Of a stretch of 64,000 bases of DNA, positions 8,204 to 59,609 are shown in pieces. The notes beneath the pieces are model-generated. The model saw nothing but the letters and a program-made list of their open reading frames with translations. It ran no database searches and was not told the DNA's origin. Numbering within the stretch: the first letter of the stretch is position 1; every line of letters starts with the position of its first letter. The position numbers were made by a program, and so were the translations under genes. This DNA comes from Lampris incognitus (taxonomy: Eukaryota; Chordata; Actinopteri; Lampriformes; Lampridae), in the NCBI RefSeq assembly GCF_029633865.1, contig NC_079213.1:95701320-95765319 (forward strand), read 5' to 3'.

Positions 8204-8240
<37 letters not shown>

Positions 8241-8242
8241 TA
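8204..8242. repeat. (TA)n microsatellite at the left edge of the Tc1 element
   Basis: An alternating TA run is interrupted once by ACA. The foldback Tc1 element begins directly after its last TA, consistent with TA target choice. Confidence 0.9.
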
Positions 8243-9439
8243 CACTACCGTTCAAAAGTTTGGGATCACCCAAACAATTTTGTGTTTTCCATGAAAAGTC
8301 ACACTTATTCACCACCATATGTTGTGAAATGAATAGAAAATAGAGTCAAGACATTGACAAGGTTAGAAATAATGATTTGTATTTGAAATAAGATTTTTTT
8401 TACATCAAACTTTGCTTTCGTCAAAGAATCCTCCATTTGCAGCAATTACAGCATTGCAGACCTTTGGCATTCTAGCTGTTAATTTGTTGAGGTAATCTGG
8501 AGAAATTGCACCCCACGCTTCCAGAAGCAGCTCCCACAAGTTGGATTGGTTGGATGGGCACTTCTTTGAGCAGATTGAGTTTCTGGAGCATCACATTTGT
8601 GGGGTCAATTAAACGCTCAAAATGGCCAGAAAAAGAGAACTTTCATCTGAAACTCGACAGTCTATTCTTGTTCTTAGAAATGAAGGCTATTCCATGCGAG
8701 AAATTGCTAAGAAATTGAAGATTTCCTACACCGGTGTGTACTACTCCCTTCAGAGGACAGCACAAACAGGCTCTAACAGGTACTATTTAATGAAGATGCC
8801 AGTTGGGGACCTGTGAGGCGTCTGTTTCTCAAACTAGAGACTCTAATGTACTTATCTTCTTGCTCAGTTGTGCAACGCGGCCTCCCACTTCTTTTTCTAC
8901 TCTGGTTAGAGCCTGTTTGTGCTGTCCTCTGAAGGGAGTAGTACACACCGGTGTAGGAAATCTTCAATTTCTTAGCAATTTCTCGCATGGAATAGCCTTC
9001 ATTTCTAAGAACAAGAATAGACTGTCGAGTTTCAGATGAAAGTTCTCTTTTTCTGGCCATTTTGAGCGTTTAATTGACCCCACAAATGTGATGCTCCAGA
9101 AACTCAATCTGCTCAAAGAAGTGCCCATCCAACCAATCCAACTTGTGGGAGCTGCTTCTGGAAGCGTGGGGTGCAATTTCTCCAGATTACCTCAACAAAT
9201 TAACAGCTAGAATGCCAAAGGTCTGCAATGCTGTAATTGCTGCAAATGGAGGATTCTTTGACGAAAGCAAAGTTTGATGTAAAAAAAATCTTATTTCAAA
9301 TACAAATCATTATTTCTAACCTTGTCAATGTCTTGACTCTATTTTCTATTCATTTCACAACATATGGTGGTGAATAAGTGTGACTTTTCATGGAAAACAC
9401 AAAATTGTTTGGGTGATCCCAAACTTTTGAACGGTAGTG
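8243..9439. mobile_element. Foldback (palindromic) Tc1/mariner element, copy A
   Basis: The element is 1197 bp, bounded by TA on both sides, with ends CACTACCGTTCAAAAG and its exact reverse complement. Left arm 8243-8777 and right arm 8905-9439 are each 535 bp and read as near-perfect inverted repeats. The 127 bp spacer (8778-8904) contains more transposase sequence in the minus orientation. Each arm carries the start of a Tc1 transposase, so the element is two head-to-head 5' halves and cannot make full transposase. It is presumably moved by an autonomous relative. Confidence 0.95.
8773..9060 (-). pseudogene. Tc1 transposase N-terminal fragment (95 aa), copy A right arm and spacer
   Basis: Begins MARKRELSSETRQSILVLRN and continues with a helix-turn-helix (REIAKKLKISYTGVYYSLQR), the paired-like DNA-binding domain of Tc1 transposases. 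A GRPR-like AT-hook (SGRPRCTTEQED) follows, then the start of the second helix-turn-helix. It stops before any DDE catalytic residues. The same N-terminus is repeated on the plus strand at 8622-8816 in the left arm, where it diverges after TGSN into spacer sequence. Confidence 0.9.

Positions 9440-9448
<9 letters not shown>

Positions 9449-9497
<49 letters not shown>
9449..9497. repeat. (CA)n microsatellite
   Basis: CA dinucleotide run between the Tc1 copy A right end and the 52 bp palindrome. Confidence 0.95.
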
Positions 9498-12574: not shown

Positions 12575-13491
12575 ATGCAATGAGTTCACTGAGTTTTTCA
12601 GAGATAAAATTAACAATTAGAAGTTCTATAAATCATCTGGCATAAAATGTATTACCTTTTTATCCAGGTAAAATGACTTCAATAATAATGTCTGAATTCA
12701 AGACCATTGATCATCATACCCTGAAGAAAATTGTCACGCAATTAAATCTATCTACCTACTGTCTTGATCCTTTGCCTACTGTGTTTATCAAAGAGTATTT
12801 CCATTATTTATTAAAAGACATGCTACGAATTGTTAACTATTCGATTTCATCTGGCCTCTTCTCACAGGGTCCAAAAACGGCAGTTATTAAACCCCTACTA
12901 AAGAAAACTCTAGATTCCTCTGTACTTAATAACTACAGACCAATTTCAAATCTACTATTTATAGGTAAGGTCAATGAGAAGGTTTTTTTTTTCAATCAGC
13001 AGCTTATTTGTTTCCTTAAGATTAATGATTTATTTGACATCTTCCAATCTGGATTTCAGCTCAACCACAGTACTGAGACAATGCCAATTAAGGTGGTTAA
13101 TGACATCCATCTTAACTTTGCCACTGTCAACATATCAGTTCTAGTTTTATTGGATTTAAGTGCTGCATTTGATACTGTTAACCATTCTATACCATTAGCT
13201 AGACTAGAAAACTGGGTCAAACTACCTAATATGGTCCTTCGCTGGTACAGGTCATACCTGCAAGACAGAGATTGCTTTGTCTCCATTGGCAGCTTTGTCT
13301 CCCAGAAGGTTAATGTGACATGTGGAGTTCCTCAAGGATCAATCCTTGGGTCTCTCTTATTCAATCTTTACATGCTACCATTAGGAAAGCATTTGCAGCA
13401 CAACAATATTGCCTACCATCATTATGCTGATGATACACACATTTATATTGCCCTCTCACCCTCTGATTATAGTCCAATTGATTCCCTATGT
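12575..13491 (+). pseudogene. L2/CR1-type LINE reverse transcriptase, 5' half (separated from its 3' half)
   Basis: The reading frame starts inside the RT region (FTEFFRDKI at about 12578), so the copy is 5'-truncated. It passes through NNYRPISNLLFIGKVNEK, DIFQSGFQLNHSTET, VLLDLSAAFDTVNHSIP, TCGVPQGSILGSLLFNLYML and the catalytic YHHYADDTHIYI. It is cut at SPIDSLC (13491) by hAT copy 1. A 316 aa open frame runs a further 130 bases into the hAT end and has no meaning there. The missing downstream part is at 19369-18675 on the opposite strand. Confidence 0.9.
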
Positions 13492-15870
13492 CAGCGGTCG
13501 GGAACCTATGGCTCGCGAGCCATATATGGGTCTTCCGGTGACGGCATATGGCTCCCAGACAATTTTGAGTTGAAAATTTTTTTAAAAAAAATCAGTTTGG
13601 AACTGATTTTAAAATACTTGTGATATTTCTTAATAATACTGTGTCATTTTAAAGTAAACAGAAATTAGTTTTGAAGATAAATTTCACGGGTCACGGTCGT
13701 GGGTCGGGTCGGGAACCAATGGCTCGCGAGCATGTCCGGGTCATTGTAAAGGCGAAGAAATCAATTTTATCAGATAGCCAACTAGTTTATCCGCTTCAAC
13801 CCTTGTAACGGAAAAGATGGCGAAAAGAAAAAAAGACGATGATTACCGTGCATTCCAGGCTGCGTGGACAGAGGAATTTGCATTTGTGGAGAGAGCAGGA
13901 TCTGCGGTATGTCTAATATGCAATGATAAAATGCATCGATGAAACGGTCAAATATAAAGCGGCACTTCGATACGCACCATGCTTCATTTGCATGGAAATA
14001 TCCAGCGGGGGACGGCAGGAAAAGGGCATGCGAGGAGCTACAGCGGAGAGTGCAGACGAGTCAGCAGCAACTACGTGTGTGGACCAAGCAAGGTGACGGG
14101 AATTCCGCTAGCTTTGCGGGTGCTTTGGCAATAGTAAGGAATGGAAAGTCATTCACAGATGGCGAGTATGCCAAAACACTCATGCTTGATGTGGCCAATG
14201 AACTGTTTGATGACTTCCCAAATAAAGACAAGATAATCAAACGAATAAAAGACATGCCCCTGTCAGCAAGAACTGTGCACGATCGTAGCATCATGATGGC
14301 AAATCAAGTCGAGGAAACAAATTAAGGACATAAACGCCGGGACATACTTTTCTCTCGCGTTAGATGAGTCAACAGACGTTAGCCATCTATCTCAGTGCAG
14401 TATAATTGCCAGGTATGCTGCAGGTGACACACTGCGTGAGGAAAGCTTGGCTGTTTTGCCAATGAAAGGGACAACAAGAGGAGAGGATTTATTCACGTCT
14501 TTCATGGAGTTTGCTAAAGAAAAAAAACTACCGATGGATAAACTTATTTCTGTCTGTACTGATGGTGCACCCTGTATGTTGGGGAAGAACAAAGGATTTG
14601 TAGCGCTTCTCCGTGAACATGAAAAGAGAGCCATCCTAAGTTTTCATTGCATCCTGCACCAGGAGGCGCTTTGCGCTCAGACGAGTGGATAGGGGCTTGG
14701 TGAGGTGATGTCGCTGGTCATTCGAGTGGTCAACTTTATTGTTGCCCGAGCTTTAAATGATCGCCAGTTTAAAGCTCTGTTAGAAGAAGTTGGGAATCAT
14801 TATCCCGGTCTGCTTTTACACAGCAACGTGCGTTGGTTGTCAAGGGGGAAGGTGCTCAGCCGTTTTGCAGCTTGCCTGAGTGAAATCCGGACTTTTCTTG
14901 AAATGAAAGGCGTCAAGCATCCTGAGCTAGACAACACTGACTGGCTCCTGCAGTTTCACTATCTCGTGGACATAACTGGCCATCTGAACCAGCTCAATGT
15001 GAAAATGCAAGGTATTGGAAATACAATCTCATCCCTTCAACAAGCAGTGTTTGCATTTGAAAGCAAGCTGGAAGTCTTTCTCAGGGACATTGAAACAGGT
15101 CGTCTTCTGCACTTTGAAAGACTGCAACAATTTAGAGATGCATGCTTAGCAAGTGACTCCACTCAACATCTGGATCTCCAGCAGCTAGCTGGCTTTACGT
15201 CCAATCTCCTGCAGTCAGGAGATTGGACGGAGATTGGAGAATTTCGTGCGTGCACTGGTCTTTTCAAGTTCATCACTCATCCACATGAGTGTGCAGTGGA
15301 CAAAATCGACCTGACATGCATCCCCGGGGTCTCTATCGGAGACTTTGAGCTGGAAGTTGCTGACCTGAAGGCATCAGACATGTGGATGAGTAAGTTCAAG
15401 TCACTTAATGGAGAGTTGGAAAGTCTTGCGCGACAGCGAGCAGAGCTGGCGAGGGAACACAAGCGGACAGAAATGAAAAATCTTCAACCTGAAGACCAGC
15501 TGATTCTTAAAACTTGGAACGAGCTTCCTGTGACATACCACACAATGCAGCGTGTGAGTATTGCCGTATTGACCATGTTTGGCTCTACATATGCTTGTGA
15601 GCAGTCATTCTCGCATATGAGGAACATTAAGACCAACCTACGCTCACGTTTAACTGATGGAAGCCTCAACGCCTGCATGAAGCTCAGCCTCACCACGTAT
15701 GAACCAGACTACAAGGCCATCAGCAAAACCATGCAGCACCAGAAGTCGCATTAAAAGTAAGACATATTTAATTTATTATACGTTAAAAATACTATATGGC
15801 TCTCGATGAAATATATTTAGAAATATTTGCCTTTTATGGCTCTCCCAGTCAAAGAGGTTCCTGACCCCTG
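13492..15870 (+). mobile_element. hAT transposon, copy 1 (chimeric after inversion)
   Basis: Begins CAGCGGTCGGGAACC and ends with the reverse complement of CAGGGGTCAGGAACC, imperfect terminal inverted repeats typical of hAT elements. Subterminal palindrome TGGCTCGCGAGCCA lies at about 13510-13523 with a related site near 13721. The left flank 13484-13491 is CCCTATGT and the right flank 15871-15878 is GACTAGGT: they do not match each other, but they match the flanks of copy 2 crosswise. Length 2379 bp. Confidence 0.93.
13817..15754 (+). pseudogene. hAT transposase, copy 1 (frameshifts and nonsense)
   Basis: An upstream ATG at 13817 opens about 41 codons with the first half of a BED-type zinc finger (AVCLICND). 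A frame slip just before 13939 puts the second half (IKRHFDTHH) in another frame. The frame from 13939 is broken by a 2 bp deletion near 14310 (stop at 14325) and by TAG at 14690-14692. The rest (14705-15754) is open and encodes the RNase H-like core end and the C-terminal hAT dimerisation block (STYACEQSFSHMRNIKTNLR). Otherwise it is nearly identical to copy 2. It belongs to the family annotated in vertebrates as GTF2IRD2/ZBED-like. Confidence 0.9.
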
Positions 15871-15994
15871 GACTAGGTGGTCACCAAAGTCTCTGGGCTC
15901 TTTTCTTTTTTTTTTTTGTTAACCTCGTCTGTAATTTCTGACACACACCAGACCCACAACTGTGGAACCCGATTTGCCTTGATTTGATGATTTG

Positions 15995-16184
15995 AAAGCC
16001 CTCAGGAAGCAGTTGGCGACCAAAGGGTGGCCGTTAAAGCGCCCCGGCCACCGGTGGTGTGACGAAGCGTCACCGTCACAGGCCCGGGACCGTCGCTCTG
16101 ACGGAGATTCGTCGCGACCAGAAATCTACTGAGCTGCTCATCCGCAAACTGCCTTACATCTGCCTGGTAAGAGAGATCGCCCAG
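15995..16184 (+). pseudogene. Histone H3 pseudogene fragment (about residues 14-76)
   Basis: KALRKQLATK is followed by a one-base insertion. After it the frame reads [20 protein letters not shown] and [19 protein letters not shown], then LVREIAQ: clear histone H3 from about Lys14 to Gln76. The codon for Lys27 is TAA, Lys36 is Thr and Tyr41 is His. It has no H3 N-terminus or C-terminal half, so it is a dead fragment. It lies inside the inverted segment, 125 bp from hAT copy 1. Confidence 0.85.
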
Positions 16185-16189
16185 GAAAA

Positions 16190-18520
16190 GAACGCCAAAA
16201 GAAACGGTATTTAGCAGAATTTACCTAAATTAGCAAATTTTAACTCTTTAAAAACCGTAACATCGTTATTATGACACGAGATGCCGCTCCATTCCCAGTG
16301 TCATGTCGTTAGCGTCATCGTTAGCGCTGGTAACAACTATTAAATGGTGCATATTAGCATTGTCAGTGTACGGGGACTTGATGATAACTTGATATGTTCG
16401 TTTATTGCATTTAGGATACACGTTTATACGATGGCAATGATGCCTTATAGTGGTGTTAAAACACCACCCGGTACGATACAGTAGCACTGGCTAGCCAATA
16501 CGTAACCCTTTCCGGTATCCATGGTAACGTTTGCATGCGTGATGCAACTTTCCATATTAAATCGGCTAACGAGTAACTATTTACCAAAGAAAAAAAAGAC
16601 AAGACTTTTTAAAGAATTTAATAATTTATTCAAACGTCTTTACTTTTACTTTTAGTTCTTTACTTCATCCTACGCCCTTTTTGAACATGGTCCAGTTATT
16701 GAGTCATTACAGAGAGTTTGCAAAATAAGTTTACTATTATTTCCACTTGTTCTTGTATTCCTGCCTGTTTATTTTATTTGTCATTTTAGCATGTTCAAAA
16801 TAAAATCAATCTAATCTGAAATCTGAAAACAAAGACGATAAGAATGTGTTTAATCTGCCCCTGAATTTGTCCAATATAAGGATTTATTTTTCTTCAATGT
16901 ACCATCATGCCATGTTTCTATTTGTCCCACTTTAAATAGAAATAAATCAAGATGAGACCAGATTTAAATTGTACTGTAACAGGAAATTTATTCCAGGGTC
17001 TGGTAGTAGTATGCTACCTAAGTTCAAATAATTAACTAATGGACTGGAACGTATCCTCCCTAAAAAAAAAAAAGTTAACCCTTTGCTTTAAGTAAACGCA
17101 CAAAAAATAATATAAAGTAAAATAAATGATCTTCTACTATAATTTGTAAGTTATCAATTATTAAGATTAATGCTTGTTCGTTTTAATAATTGTCTGTGTT
17201 TGTGTGTGAGACTAAGGGCATACTCACACTTGGCACGGTTGGCTTGTACCGTGCCCGAGCATGATTGTACCCCCTCTCCACTTAATAAAAGACTTACCTA
17301 GCCTCTTTGACAAACGCATACGCATCACGTCTTTAGCTGTAGTTCTCTGTAGTTTCCATTTTCTCGGCAGGCGTCACGTGAGCTGACTGGGCTCCACCAG
17401 CACTGGCTCAACGAAATGAATGGGTGATAACAATTACTTGAACCTACTAGTAGGTTTAGTCAGCCCTACTTGCCCATATACGTATTTGGGACAGATGTGT
17501 GATGATAACCTAACTCATATCCTATTCAATAAACTGATAACAGTCAAATCGGGTGCCCACTTGCACATTCAAGTTCAATTTAAGGTTCAAGTTTATTTAT
17601 GCACCGCAGCACAGAGCCCGACCCTCTCAATCCCGCTGGAATAATTAATCTGAGCCTGAACCGACATGATCGAGTTAAGCCTGACAGGGTTCGGTTTGAG
17701 AATTGCAAACTCTAGTGTTCAGTCATTTACATTTTCCCACATAACGAGATTCAAGAATGAGTTTCAACTTTTGCTGTGTATTTTGAGCACAAAATGAAAG
17801 AAAGCAAACAATCGGAGCCTGACGCTCCTAATTCACTCAGTTAATTTCCCTCATCAGATTATTTGTCTCTATCTGGCGTGACATGCATTTGCTGCATCCA
17901 TGCCATTGTAATAATGTGAAAATATTTACCCACTGGCTAGATTTTAAGTGCAACATATCAGGTCAGGGATCTGAAGGCTTTCAGATGGATCTGCATCATC
18001 AGAATAATAACGGTTATTTGCACAACACTTTTTAAAAACCTGCTGTGCTTCACAACAAAGTGGAATGGAAATAAAAGCAAAGAAGTGCGGTTGGGATATG
18101 TGATGATTTATTTTATTCCTTTAAGAGCACCTCAAATTTTGTATGACAACATAATTTGACAGTAATAACTTACAGATGTGGAATACGTCATACTAATTGA
18201 CGGCACATTAAAATGGGGCTCAAGTGAGCAAGGATGTCTCATTTTGTTAAATGTCTGTTGCTTCAACTCCTCTCTCCTCTCATTTCTGTATGTTTTTATT
18301 TCTGTGATTGTGACACGTGCCATGGGGACGGTTCGAGATGAAGGCAGACATGGTTTTAGGCGATTAACATAGGCTTTATTTACTAATGTTTTTCACTCGC
18401 GTGGGCCAGTGTGCTGCTCCGACGTGAGCCACGCCCCTCTCTCCGCTTGCAGCCAAGGCTAAACCACGCCCGTCCACCACATTGGTGTATGTGGTTATTT
18501 GCATAGAGAGCAGGGAAGTG
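16190..18520. other. Intergenic, no gene seen (inside the inverted segment)
   Basis: A+T-rich sequence with no convincing coding frame. No tandem repeat of note and no recognised element. Confidence 0.5.
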
Positions 18521-18524
18521 AGAT

Positions 18525-18660
18525 CTGATCACAAGTGGTCACTCGAGACGCATGTGGACATGCATTCTAGGACGCATTGCCAGGTGTGAACTGATGTACT
18601 TAGAGCTGTCCATTTGTGATTACCCAAGACACCAGGTCTAAACAGCCTCTAAGTGAGCAA
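18525..18660. repeat. MITE-like repeat related to 22386-22495
   Basis: Shares the order GAGCTGTCCA, then TGTGATTACCCAAGAC or TGTAATCGGATCACCCAAGAC, then CCAGGTGT/CCAGGTCT and AAGTAGCC/AAACAGCC with 22432-22495. Both also have CACCTG/GCCAGGTGTGAA ends resembling a short fish DNA-transposon family. No certain boundaries. Confidence 0.5.
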
Positions 18661-18674
18661 GTCAGTGTTCATAA

Positions 18675-19369
18675 GCCCTACAAAACAAGAAAGTTTTGAG
18701 CTTGGATTTAAAAGTTGCCACATTTTGGGTGTATCTAAGTATTTCTGGGAGGTTGTTCTAGGTGTAAGAAGCATAATGTCTGAATGACACTTCACCATGT
18801 GTTGTCTTAGGTCTATAAACAGTTAGTAGTCCTTTTCCAGATGACCTAAGGGTTCTTAATGGTTCATACAGAATAAGAACATCTAGGAAATATTTTGGCC
18901 CCAAGCCATTTAGGGTTTTATAGACTAATAAACGAATTTTAAATTCAACTCTCTGGCACAGTGGAAGCCAGTGAGAACTAGTGGGACATGGTCATATTTT
19001 TTAGTTTTTGTGAGTACCCTTGCAGCTGCATGTTGAACATGCTGTAGTTTTCAGAGAGTTTTTTTAGGAAGGCCGGTGTACAACCTGTACTATCCTACGA
19101 TAGATGAAAGCATGGATAAGCTTTTCCAGGTCTGTTCTGGATAGTAGGCCTCCAAGCTTTGCTATATTTTTAAAGTAGTAATATGTTGACTTTGTTAATG
19201 CAATAACACTCAAGTTTCTAGCCTTATTTGTTGTCTATAGTGATAGAGATTTTAGGTAGCCACTGACCTTAATTCCCTAATTTTTTGGAAATCAAAAACG
19301 ACTACCTCTGTTTTGTCCTTGTTTAGCTGGACATCCAGTCATTTTATCAGGGAACACGATGACATAGGG
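18675..19369 (-). pseudogene. L2/CR1-type LINE reverse transcriptase, 3' half (inverted)
   Basis: Read on the minus strand from 19369 it gives CHRV, NDWMSS, LNKDKTEVVVFDFQK, then SVIALTKSTYYYFKNIAKLG and GLLSRTDLEKLIHAFIYRRI, and later GEVSFRHYASYT and VATFKSKLKTFLF. This is the downstream part of the same RT type as 12575-13491. It begins exactly at the hAT flank CCCTATGT that ends the 5' half (SLC, then H). Small deletions and stops are present. Confidence 0.9.
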
Positions 19370-21747
19370 CAGGGGTCAGGAACCTTTTTGACTGGGAGAG
19401 CCATAAAAGCCAAATATTTCTAAATATATTTCATCGAGAGCCATATAGTATTTTTAACGTATAATAAATTAAATATGTCTTACTTTTAATGCGACTTCTG
19501 GTGCTGCATGGTTTTGCTGATGGCCTTGTAGTCTGGTTCATACGTGGTGAGGCTGAGCTTCATGCAGGCGTTGAGGCTTCCATCAGTTAAACGTGAGCGT
19601 AGGTTGGTCTTAATGTTCCTCATATGCGAGAATGACTGCTCACAAGCATATGTAGAGCCAAACATGGTCAATACGGCAATACTCACACGCTGCATTGTGT
19701 GGTATGTCACAGGAAGCTCGTTCCAAGTTTTAAGAATCAGCTGGTCTTCAGGTTGAAGATTTTTCATTTCTGTCCACTTGTGTTCCCTCGCCAGCTCTGC
19801 TCGCTGTCGCGCAAGACTTTCCAACTCTCCATTAAGTGACTTGAACTTACTCATCCACATGTCTGATGCCTTCAGGTCAGCAACTTCCAGCTCAAAGTCT
19901 CCGATAGAGACCCCGGGGATGCATGTCAGGTCGATTTTGTCCACTGCACACTCATGTGGATGAGTGATGAACTTGAAAAGACCAGTGCACGCACGAAATT
20001 CTCCAATCTCCGTCCAATCTCCTGACTGCAGGAGATTGGACGTAAAGCCAGCTAGCTGCTGGAGATCCAGATGTTGAGTGGAGTCACTTGCTAAGCATGC
20101 ATCTCTAAATTGTTGCAGTCTTTCAAAGTGCAGAAGACGACCTGTTTCAATGTCCCTGAGAAAGACTTCCAGCTTGCTTTCAAATGCAAACACTGCTTGT
20201 TGAAGGGATGAGATTGTATTTCCAATACCTTGCATTTTCACATTGAGCTGGTTCAGATGGCCAGTTATGTCCACGAGATAGTGAAACTGCAGGAGCCAGT
20301 CAGTGTTGTCTAGCTCAGGATGCTTGACGCCTTTCATTTCAAGAAAAGTCCGGATTTCACTCAGGCAAGCTGCAAAACGGCTGAGCACCTTCCCCCTTGA
20401 CAACCGACGCACGTTGCTGTGTAAAAGCAGACCGGGATAATGATTCCCAACTTCTTCTAACAGAGCTTTAAACTGGCGATCATTTAAAGCTCGGGCAACA
20501 ATAAAGTTGACCACTCGAATGACCAGCGACATCACCTCACCAAGCCCCTGGCCACACGTCTGAGCGCAAAGCGCCTCCTGGTGCAGGATGCAATGAAAAC
20601 TTAGGATGGCTCTCTTTTCATGTTCACGGAGAAGCGCTACAAATCCTTTGTTCTTCCCCAACATACAGGGTGCACCATCAGTACAGACAGAAATAAGTTT
20701 ATCCATCGGTAGTTTTTTTTCTTTAGCAAACTCCATGAAAGACATGAATAAATCCTCTCCTCTTGTTGTCCCTTTCATTGGCAAAACAGCCAAGCTTTCC
20801 TCACGCAGTGTGTCACCTGCAGCATACCTGGCAATTATACTGCACTGAGATAGATGGCTAACGTCTGTTGACTCATCTAACGCGAGAGAAAAGTATGTCC
20901 CGGCGTTTATGTCCTTAATTTGTGTTTCCTCGACTTGATTTGCCATCATGATGCTACGATCGTGCACAGTTCTTGCTGACAGGGGCATGTCTTTTATTCG
21001 TTTGATTATCTTGTCTTTATTTGGGAAGTCATCAAACAGTTCATTGGCCACATCAAGCATGAGTGTTTTGGCATACTCGCCATCTGTGAATGACTTTCCA
21101 TTCCTTACTATTGCCAAAGCACCCGCAAAGCTAGCGGAATTCCCGTCACCTTGCTTGGTCCACACACGTAGTTGCTGCTGACTCGTCTGCACTCTCCGCT
21201 GTAGCTCCTCGCATGCCCTTTTCCTGCCGTCCCCCGCTGGAGATTTCCATGCAAATGAAGCATGGTGCGTATCGAAGTGCCGCTTTATATTTGACCGTTT
21301 CATCGATGCATTTTATCATTGCATATTAGACATACCGCAGATCCTGCTCACTCCACAAATGCAAATTCCTCTGTCCACGCAGCCTGGAATGCACGGTAAT
21401 CATCGTCTTTTTTTCTTTTCGCCATCTTTTCCGTTACAAGGGTTGAAGCGGATAAACTAGTTGGCTATCTGATAAAATTGATTTCTTCGCCTTTACAATG
21501 ACCCGGACATGCTCGCGAGCCATTGGTTCCCGACCCGACCCACGACCGTGACCCGTGAAATTTATCTTCAAAACTAATTTCTGTTTACTTTAAAATGACA
21601 CAGTATTATTAAGAAATATCACAAGTATTTTAAAATCAGTTCCAAACTGATTTTTTTTATTTTTTTCAACTCAAAATTGTCTGGGAGCCATATGCCGTCA
21701 CCGGAAGACCCATATATGGCTCGCGAGCCATAGGTTCCCGACCGCTG
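19370..21747 (-). mobile_element. hAT transposon, copy 2 (chimeric after inversion)
   Basis: Minus-strand copy of 2378 bp, nearly identical to copy 1, with the same terminal repeats and TGGCTCGCGAGCCA subterminal palindrome (about 21717-21730). Flanks on the plus strand are ACATAGGG (19362-19369) and ACCTAGTC (21748-21755), which do not match each other but pair with those of copy 1. Confidence 0.93.
19486..21303 (-). CDS. hAT transposase, copy 2, long open frame (605 aa)
   Basis: The frame opens at MKRSNIKRHFDTHH, which is the second half of a BED zinc finger, so the true protein should start upstream. An ATG at 21425 begins MAKRKKDD and reaches the CLIC half of the finger, but a TGA (in place of Arg in copy 1) and a frame slip shared with copy 1 separate it from this frame. 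Inside: SLALDESTDVSHLSQCSIIA (catalytic Asp region), LISVCTDGAPCMLGKNKGF (second catalytic region), CILHQEALC, and at the C-terminus YACEQSFSHMRNI with NLRSRL (hAT dimerisation). It is a transposon protein, not a host gene, although databases label relatives GTF2IRD2-like. It probably lacks full DNA binding. Confidence 0.88.
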   Translation of the reverse strand: MKRSNIKRHFDTHHASFAWKSPAGDGRKRACEELQRRVQTSQQQLRVWTKQGDGNSASFAGALAIVRNGKSFTDGEYAKTLMLDVANELFDDFPNKDKIIKRIKDMPLSARTVHDRSIMMANQVEETQIKDINAGTYFSLALDESTDVSHLSQCSIIARYAAGDTLREESLAVLPMKGTTRGEDLFMSFMEFAKEKKLPMDKLISVCTDGAPCMLGKNKGFVALLREHEKRAILSFHCILHQEALCAQTCGQGLGEVMSLVIRVVNFIVARALNDRQFKALLEEVGNHYPGLLLHSNVRRLSRGKVLSRFAACLSEIRTFLEMKGVKHPELDNTDWLLQFHYLVDITGHLNQLNVKMQGIGNTISSLQQAVFAFESKLEVFLRDIETGRLLHFERLQQFRDACLASDSTQHLDLQQLAGFTSNLLQSGDWTEIGEFRACTGLFKFITHPHECAVDKIDLTCIPGVSIGDFELEVADLKASDMWMSKFKSLNGELESLARQRAELAREHKWTEMKNLQPEDQLILKTWNELPVTYHTMQRVSIAVLTMFGSTYACEQSFSHMRNIKTNLRSRLTDGSLNACMKLSLTTYEPDYKAISKTMQHQKSH

Positions 21748-21755
21748 ACCTAGTC

Positions 21756-22140
21756 AACTGACGTCCTCTGCGTGGCTCGGGACACGTGCGTTTTGTAGCA
21801 GCTGTAAGATGGTTGCTCACAGACCCAAGAACACCAGGAACGGGATCTGCATATTTATTCTAACGAAAGTCGGATGGGGCACAGTCAATTCACACACAGT
21901 GGCAAGCTGTCTCACACTCCCCATTACAAGAGCTGCTCGACTTTTGCCGCGAATTCGCAGCCACGTCACTCCTGTGTCTCTTGTGTGTCACTAATTGAAG
22001 TCCCCCTTACTATAACAGGTAAACCGGAACAACATATTTATTTGTTAAACATAAGGTTGGCGATATCCAGACTATAACAGAAAATATTACACACAGTTTT
22101 TGAGAATGTTCACCAAGAGAAAAAATACATAAACTAAAAA
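21756..22140. other. Intergenic, no gene seen
   Basis: A short 61-codon open frame from 21809 has no recognised motif. It would have been continuous with sequence now at 15871-16200 (reversed) before the inversion. Confidence 0.4.
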
Positions 22141-22149
22141 TAACATGAA

Positions 22150-22400
22150 CAAGTCAAGTTAAGTCAAGTCAATTTTTTTATATATAGCCAATATCACAAA
22201 TTACAAATTTGCCTCAGTGGGCTTTACATCAACACGACATCATGTCCTTAGACCCCCCGCCCCCCTCCCCTCATCGGATACGGAACAACTATCTAAAAAA
22301 AAATCCTTTAACGGAGAAAAATAAGACGAAACTTCAGGGGGCGCAACAGAGGAGGGATCTCGCTCCTAAGACCATACTGACTCCGCTACACGTTTAAACT
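22150..22400. repeat. Fish interspersed repeat (LINE/DNA-transposon tail type)
   Basis: Contains GTCAAGTCAATTTT, then CCAATATCACAAATTACAAA, GGGCTTTACATCAACACGAC, CTTAGACCC and GGGGGCGCAACAGAGGAGGG, a wording common to many teleost interspersed repeats. A related tail piece (GGCAAATTTGTAATATTGGG, AAAATTGACTTGAC) is at 49025-49080 in the opposite orientation. Confidence 0.55.
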
Positions 22401-22821
22401 TCAAATGCGATTGGGTGCATTGACACCTGTACTTGGAGCTGTCCACATGTAATCGGATCACCCAAGACGCATGTTAATGCCAGGTGTAAGTAGCCCCACA
22501 AAGGTGTACCTATCTCAACTATGAGCTGTAGCACCAATATTTTTATACATTCTTTTTGTCATCTGTGCAACTTTGTCTTTTTTTGTTGTTATTTTTATTC
22601 AGTTACTTTTTCTTGCTGCTAATTTTATTGCCTTATCTTTTTATTTATTTCAATTCTTTCCTTTTTTAAATTAATCTTGTTATTGTAGCCTATTTTTTAT
22701 GTAAAGCACACGATTGATTGAACTGCATGTGTGTATGAAATGCGCTCTATCAATAAAGTTGCCTTGCCTGGAAACGAAAGCGAGACAATAAATGACGAGC
22801 TACGTCGACTTCTGAACAGTA

Positions 22822-29788: not shown

Positions 29789-59609
<29,821 letters not shown>

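Follow-up and report, generated by a model that had tools for sequence, protein, structure and literature searches.

The window, by which we mean the whole 64,000-nucleotide stretch of DNA that was analysed (contig C3, positions 95701320-95765319, in an assembly of 1.48 Gb and 537 contigs), holds two copies of a hAT transposon that lie in opposite orientation and bracket 3483 bp of other DNA together with two inner 8-mers. Copy 1 (13492-15870, plus strand, 2379 bp) and copy 2 (19370-21747, minus strand, 2378 bp) both have a broken transposase frame, as read from their sequence, their alignment to the family and their translation. The exact order along the plus strand is CCCTATGT, copy 1, GACTAGGT, the intervening DNA, ACATAGGG, copy 2 and ACCTAGTC, with the 8-mers flush against the element ends, and the coordinates and 8-mers that the initial annotation gave for both copies proved exact on recheck. 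These flank letters define two target sites, which we call s and t. The duplication of s, CCCTATGT, occupies 13484-13491 on the plus strand, and its second copy is inverted at 19362-19369 (ACATAGGG on the plus strand); the duplication of t, ACCTAGTC, occupies 21748-21755 on the plus strand, and its other copy is inverted at 15871-15878 (GACTAGGT on the plus strand). Between the inner duplications lies the inverted segment itself (15879-19361, minus strand, 3483 bp).

Site s falls within an open L2 reverse-transcriptase fragment (13000-13491, plus strand; Pfam domain match to RVT_1, E 2.1e-19) that is cut by copy 1 and that continues, by translation and alignment, on the minus strand at 18601-19361, where 18601 is the edge of the stretch used rather than a mapped end. 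Site t falls within a dispersed repeat, R, whose pieces were placed by alignment to its paralogues. The piece at the breakpoint (15871-15967) and the remainder inside the inverted segment (17554-18655, approximate limits taken from alignments) are parts of one R, the former adjoining in paralogues the stretch that matches 17554 onward, and the other end of the repeat lies outside the inversion at approximately 21756-22500, where it is itself interrupted and where the stretch 22410-22500 matches the R paralogues. About 1.6 kb that lies within R here (15968-17553) is missing from those paralogues, and a by-eye reading of its translation picks out, around 16000-16190, a coding fragment that resembles histone H3. 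Elsewhere in the window, 8233-9449 and 49703-50929 are copies of another element in inverted orientation, with 14 differing columns of 1227, each composed of inverted arms of roughly 550 bp around 127 bp and set in TA-rich surroundings; being 40 kb apart, they form a further pair that could recombine. Rfam gave no match in the window at gathering scores.

The hAT family and the exchanged flanks

Of 1206 candidates, 40 family copies were scored as a control set; 39 of them retain both ends and the remaining one is truncated. Perfect 8-bp target-site duplications, by which a hAT DNA transposon is recognised, flank 35 of those 39, and the four without matched flanks are the window pair and the copies L010 and L034. 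The outer 8-mer of each window copy is instead the reverse complement of the other copy's inner flank, as the initial annotation had reported, and exchanged target-site duplications of this kind are one feature expected of an inversion by crossover between independent transposable-element insertions (non-allelic homologous recombination, NAHR). The family prefers targets of the form nnnTAnnn, with T at position 4 in 35/35 and A at position 5 in 34/35; because of this preference two unrelated duplications would coincide with a probability of about 1.7e-3 (a coincidence seen in 1 of 595 pairs of copies), and two crossed matches would arise by chance at about 3e-6, compared with 2e-10 for random 8-mers. 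Chance identity of the crossed 8-mers was ruled out at the figure of about 3e-6, which takes the family's own target preference into account. A composite transposon spanning 13484-21755 was also rejected, the outer CCCTATGT and ACCTAGTC not forming a direct repeat, and L010 and L034 do not add further exchanged pairs, neither having an exact flank match among the other 38 copies compared. A by-eye reading of its flanks suggests that L010 could be a normal insertion whose duplication has since been damaged.

One other family copy that was inspected, L005, retains a transposase frame of 645 aa, within which the hAT C-terminal dimerisation domain is found (PF05699, E 1.1e-07); both window copies are broken. 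No solved structure matched the L005 transposase at E 0.001. Among the best 120 of 540 matches its nearest relative comes from Pogonophryne albipinna (97% identity over 86% of the length), and relatives in the same set that are about 81-82% identical are named as bat, frogs, caecilian and copepod, besides fish. This spread suggests, from protein similarity, horizontal transfer of the family or, for some of the relatives, contamination. The transposase relatives and the L2 content point to a teleost as the probable host.

Collinearity of the two breakpoints

When the segment is flipped back in silico, both breakpoints become collinear, through the L2 reverse transcriptase at s and through repeat R at t, so that the proposed inversion, flanked by inverted hAT copies whose duplications are exchanged, is supported at both of its ends; as assembled, the inversion is real. 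At s, the L2 does resume at the very next codon, as had been claimed, but its minus-strand continuation starts at 19361, eight bases inward of the 19369 originally given, since the second copy of the duplication takes up 19362-19369. Once joined, the L2 proves degenerate, with many stops and frameshifts outside the open fragment, and for that reason the junction at s does not lend itself to a check at base level. Comparison of the joined L2 with 38 loci gave matches in four, one of which spans the junction: this independent copy of the L2, which lies in flanking DNA of the family copy L017, aligns across s with 263 of 462 bases identical (57%).

Breakpoint t, which lay outside the tests proposed in the initial annotation, is collinear as well. 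Seven R paralogues were fetched, and in three the alignment passes through the rejoined site, the other four not reaching it; 16 bases align beyond it in L042 and L048, and 38 in L047, a copy whose placement, like that of L045, is uncertain because R is partly palindromic near t. In the multiple alignment two of the seven, L042 and L048, carry the target site uninterrupted, with GACTAGGC present once at the position that GACTAGGT occupies in the window, and by comparison with the R paralogues no bases were lost or gained at t. Among 40 scored of 1372 candidates in the assembly there was no second copy of the whole inverted segment and no haplotig of the locus in the other orientation, and the other matches to the segment are partial (reaching 95% identity in stretches shorter than 100 bases and no more than 85% in longer ones).

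Relationship between the two copies

Of the 2376 bases that align between copies 1 and 2, 13 are different, and there are indels besides. They were compared with 38 other fetched copies of the family in an alignment of 2404 columns, and the pair shares eight private events, none of which is present in full in any of those 38. The shared private changes run from column 39 to column 2339, and comprise substitutions at columns 39, 711, 2129 and 2339, at 212-217 a 5-bp deletion beside a further change (the gaps at 214-216 also occur in L028, whose deletion is larger and different), a 1-bp frame-breaking deletion at column 459, and a hairpin-shaped replacement at columns 1752-1767 (one letter of which, at column 1754, also occurs in L032). 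Since the frame-breaking deletion is common to both copies, this damage is older than the duplication. The hairpin-shaped replacement lies at 15198-15229 on the plus strand in copy 1 and at 20011-20042 on the minus strand in copy 2, and, by family alignment and 30-mer search, is confined to these two copies; a 30-mer covering it occurs at exactly two places in the 1.48 Gb, allowing up to three mismatches, and these are the two copies. In both it supplants the family sequence with a 14-bp perfect hairpin around a 4-base loop, and looks like the product of a template switch in which one arm served as the model for its partner.

When states exclusive to a single pair of copies were counted by script over all 780 pairs, the window pair came out at the top with eight events (seven if 212-217 is taken as one event), followed by L034/L039 with four and by L006/L016 and L001/L020 with two each; only nine of the 780 pairs have any. 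The second-ranked pair is a further set of sisters (support 100, four events common to them alone), 22.5 Mb apart on contig C3, in which L039 has matched flanks and L034 has the unmatched flanks CTATACGC and GACTATAT. A family tree built without the poly-T tract and the hairpin block sets the window pair apart from the 38 others with support of 98, and the stem leading to the pair (0.0045) exceeds both tips in length (0.0026 and 0.0018). At 30 sites that are polymorphic in the family the pair differs at two, and among other pairs the 5% quantile is one, the 25% quantile three and the median five, a value for the window pair that is low and not extreme; the argument for sisterhood is carried by the shared private events and not by overall similarity. 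The evidence says that these are sister copies rather than independent insertions, and the alignment is most simply read as a single defective locus that grew old before being copied once, its products now forming the two ends of the inversion.

The differences that now separate the copies are six point differences outside a block of four sites (in about 2376 bases), a 2-bp deletion in copy 1 and changes in the poly-T tract. Within the block, at columns 1030-1224, copy 1 has the four rarer letters of L020 and copy 2 (window 20550-20744) has those of the family majority; both copies agree with L020 in a change at column 1228, and copy 2 agrees with it at column 528. These letters are most simply read as a short gene conversion in which another family member overwrote part of copy 2, or as allelic variation. 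The suggestion that a crossover might be mapped from private variants along the two copies led nowhere, since no reciprocal switch point was found, and the chimera of two distinguishable parents that is looked for under NAHR is not seen, the private events being shared from end to end. A crossover between near-identical local copies would, however, leave no visible chimera.

Histories of the locus and their wider setting

Inversion at both breakpoints, exchange of the duplications and sisterhood of the copies are each shown by the sequence, and we infer that one event both duplicated the element and inverted the DNA. The history that we tentatively favour, with a confidence just short of even and over a local transposition followed by an inverting crossover, is hybrid-element insertion (HEI) from one aged, defective copy. 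Such a copy would have stood at s, in the L2, or at t, in R, for long enough to acquire its private mutations, whereupon, with transposase presumably supplied in trans, a single event would have placed a second copy in inverted orientation, flipped the intervening DNA and exchanged the 8-bp duplications. Both this model and a crossover were written as string operations. The HEI product of one element at s inserting into an empty t, with copies 1 and 2 taken as the sisters, equals the window letter for letter, and the assertion that a single insertion cannot give the pattern fails, because HEI from one pre-existing insertion yields the same letters. When two matched insertions are made to cross over in the model, copy 1 standing for each of them, all 24 crossover positions that were tried lead to this structure too, and the symmetry of the product makes the order of sites s and t indistinguishable. 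Inverted copies, exchanged duplications and junctions free of loss or gain, as expected of HEI, are all found, the last at base level at t only. According to the excerpted text of PMC2775673, the outcomes of HEI and of ectopic recombination are strikingly similar, with identical copies expected from the one and chimeric copies from the other. For maize Ac, the part of PMC3744419 available describes a restriction by hemimethylation on the choice of end pairs, and HEI from one element would be disfavoured if the same limit held here.

The sister copies are evidence against two independent parents; they do not separate HEI from a local copy followed by a crossover, a serious contender that we rate only slightly lower. 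In that history the defective donor was kept, an ordinary insertion of its daughter landed 3.5 kb away in inverted orientation, and the 2.4-kb arms then recombined, possibly repeatedly, flipping the segment. Recombination is to be expected of long inverted arms that are nearly identical and only 3.5 kb apart, family copies in this genome do seem to recombine, to judge from the probable conversion block in copy 2, and sisterhood, exchanged duplications and collinearity are explained as well as by HEI, down to the same letters; all that tells against it is the need for two events where one is enough. The initial annotation had proposed two separate insertions from the family pool followed by a crossover (NAHR), of which the inversion is supported and the separate insertions are not shown, a crossover within a locally made pair being still plausible. 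The exchanged duplications at both copies fit that proposal, and for the Galileo inversions of Drosophila a crossover of two insertions is the accepted reading in the excerpted text of PMC2775673, but here the copies are sisters over their whole length, with private events that are whole in none of the 38 other copies and a 30-mer signature found nowhere else in the assembly, so that independent insertions would require near end-to-end gene conversion or a sublineage since lost, or absent from this individual, and appear improbable. A segment misoriented in assembly is less probable still. Such errors typically arise from arms like these, 2.4 kb long and about 99% identical, yet the 118-Mb contig, in a 1.48-Gb assembly of 537 contigs, suggests long reads that would span the 8.3 kb, no alternative copy of the segment appeared among the 40 scored of 1372 candidates, and misorientation would erase the inversion while leaving both sister copies in place, still inverted relative to each other.

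Inversions that are bounded by transposons and show exchanged duplications are already a known kind of event. Hybrid-element insertion of P elements is known from experiments, whereas the case in the window is inferred from one genome and concerns a hAT element. For the P element, whose HEI is cited in both PMC2775673 and PMC3744419, a structure like that of the window is predicted from one insertion, with identical copies (legend of Figure S1 A in PMC2775673). The Galileo inversion 2z3 of Drosophila buzzatii likewise has an inverted segment bounded by inverted transposon copies with exchanged duplications, but in the same excerpt (PMC2775673) its copies are chimeric, which points to a crossover, while the window pair are sisters from end to end; Galileo also belongs to the P superfamily and makes 7-bp duplications, as against a hAT element, 8 bp and a 3.5-kb segment here. 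Closer in superfamily is the alternative transposition of maize Ac/Ds, in its sister-chromatid and reversed-ends forms, which also involves a hAT element with 8-bp duplications and, in the parts of PMC3744419 and PMC8225341 available, produces inversions and duplications from the ends of two element copies. Reversed-ends transposition, as outlined there, requires two elements at the outset, and the duplications that it makes show a different duplication pattern; Ac is limited by hemimethylation, in a plant, whereas the window probably comes from a vertebrate. Non-standard transposition in a vertebrate is described for Sleeping Beauty in transgenic mice (PMC1584263 and PMC8225341, in excerpt), although that system is engineered and of another superfamily, in contrast to a natural hAT element. 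Among the matches listed in the openly licensed literature, judged by title or start of abstract, there was no natural vertebrate hAT case of HEI, alternative transposition or inversion; within the same scope the literature on exchanged duplications concerned Drosophila only, and the vertebrate rearrangements were those of engineered Sleeping Beauty in mice. That the locus records a natural germline HEI by a vertebrate hAT element, with a second copy of a defective element, a 3.5-kb inversion and the exchange of the duplications all arising at one stroke, is a reading to which we give somewhat less than even odds, a shade below the preference for HEI itself.

If the reading by HEI is true, exchanged duplications would be ambiguous as proof of a crossover whenever the copies are sisters. 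It is common to treat exchanged target-site duplications as demonstrating that two insertions have recombined ectopically. Both breakpoints of this locus would qualify by that standard although the copies are sisters, and the standard by itself therefore cannot distinguish a crossover from aberrant transposition. Separating the mechanisms needs the family as an outgroup, which an assembled genome supplies, in a comparison that is applicable to other transposon-bounded inversions.
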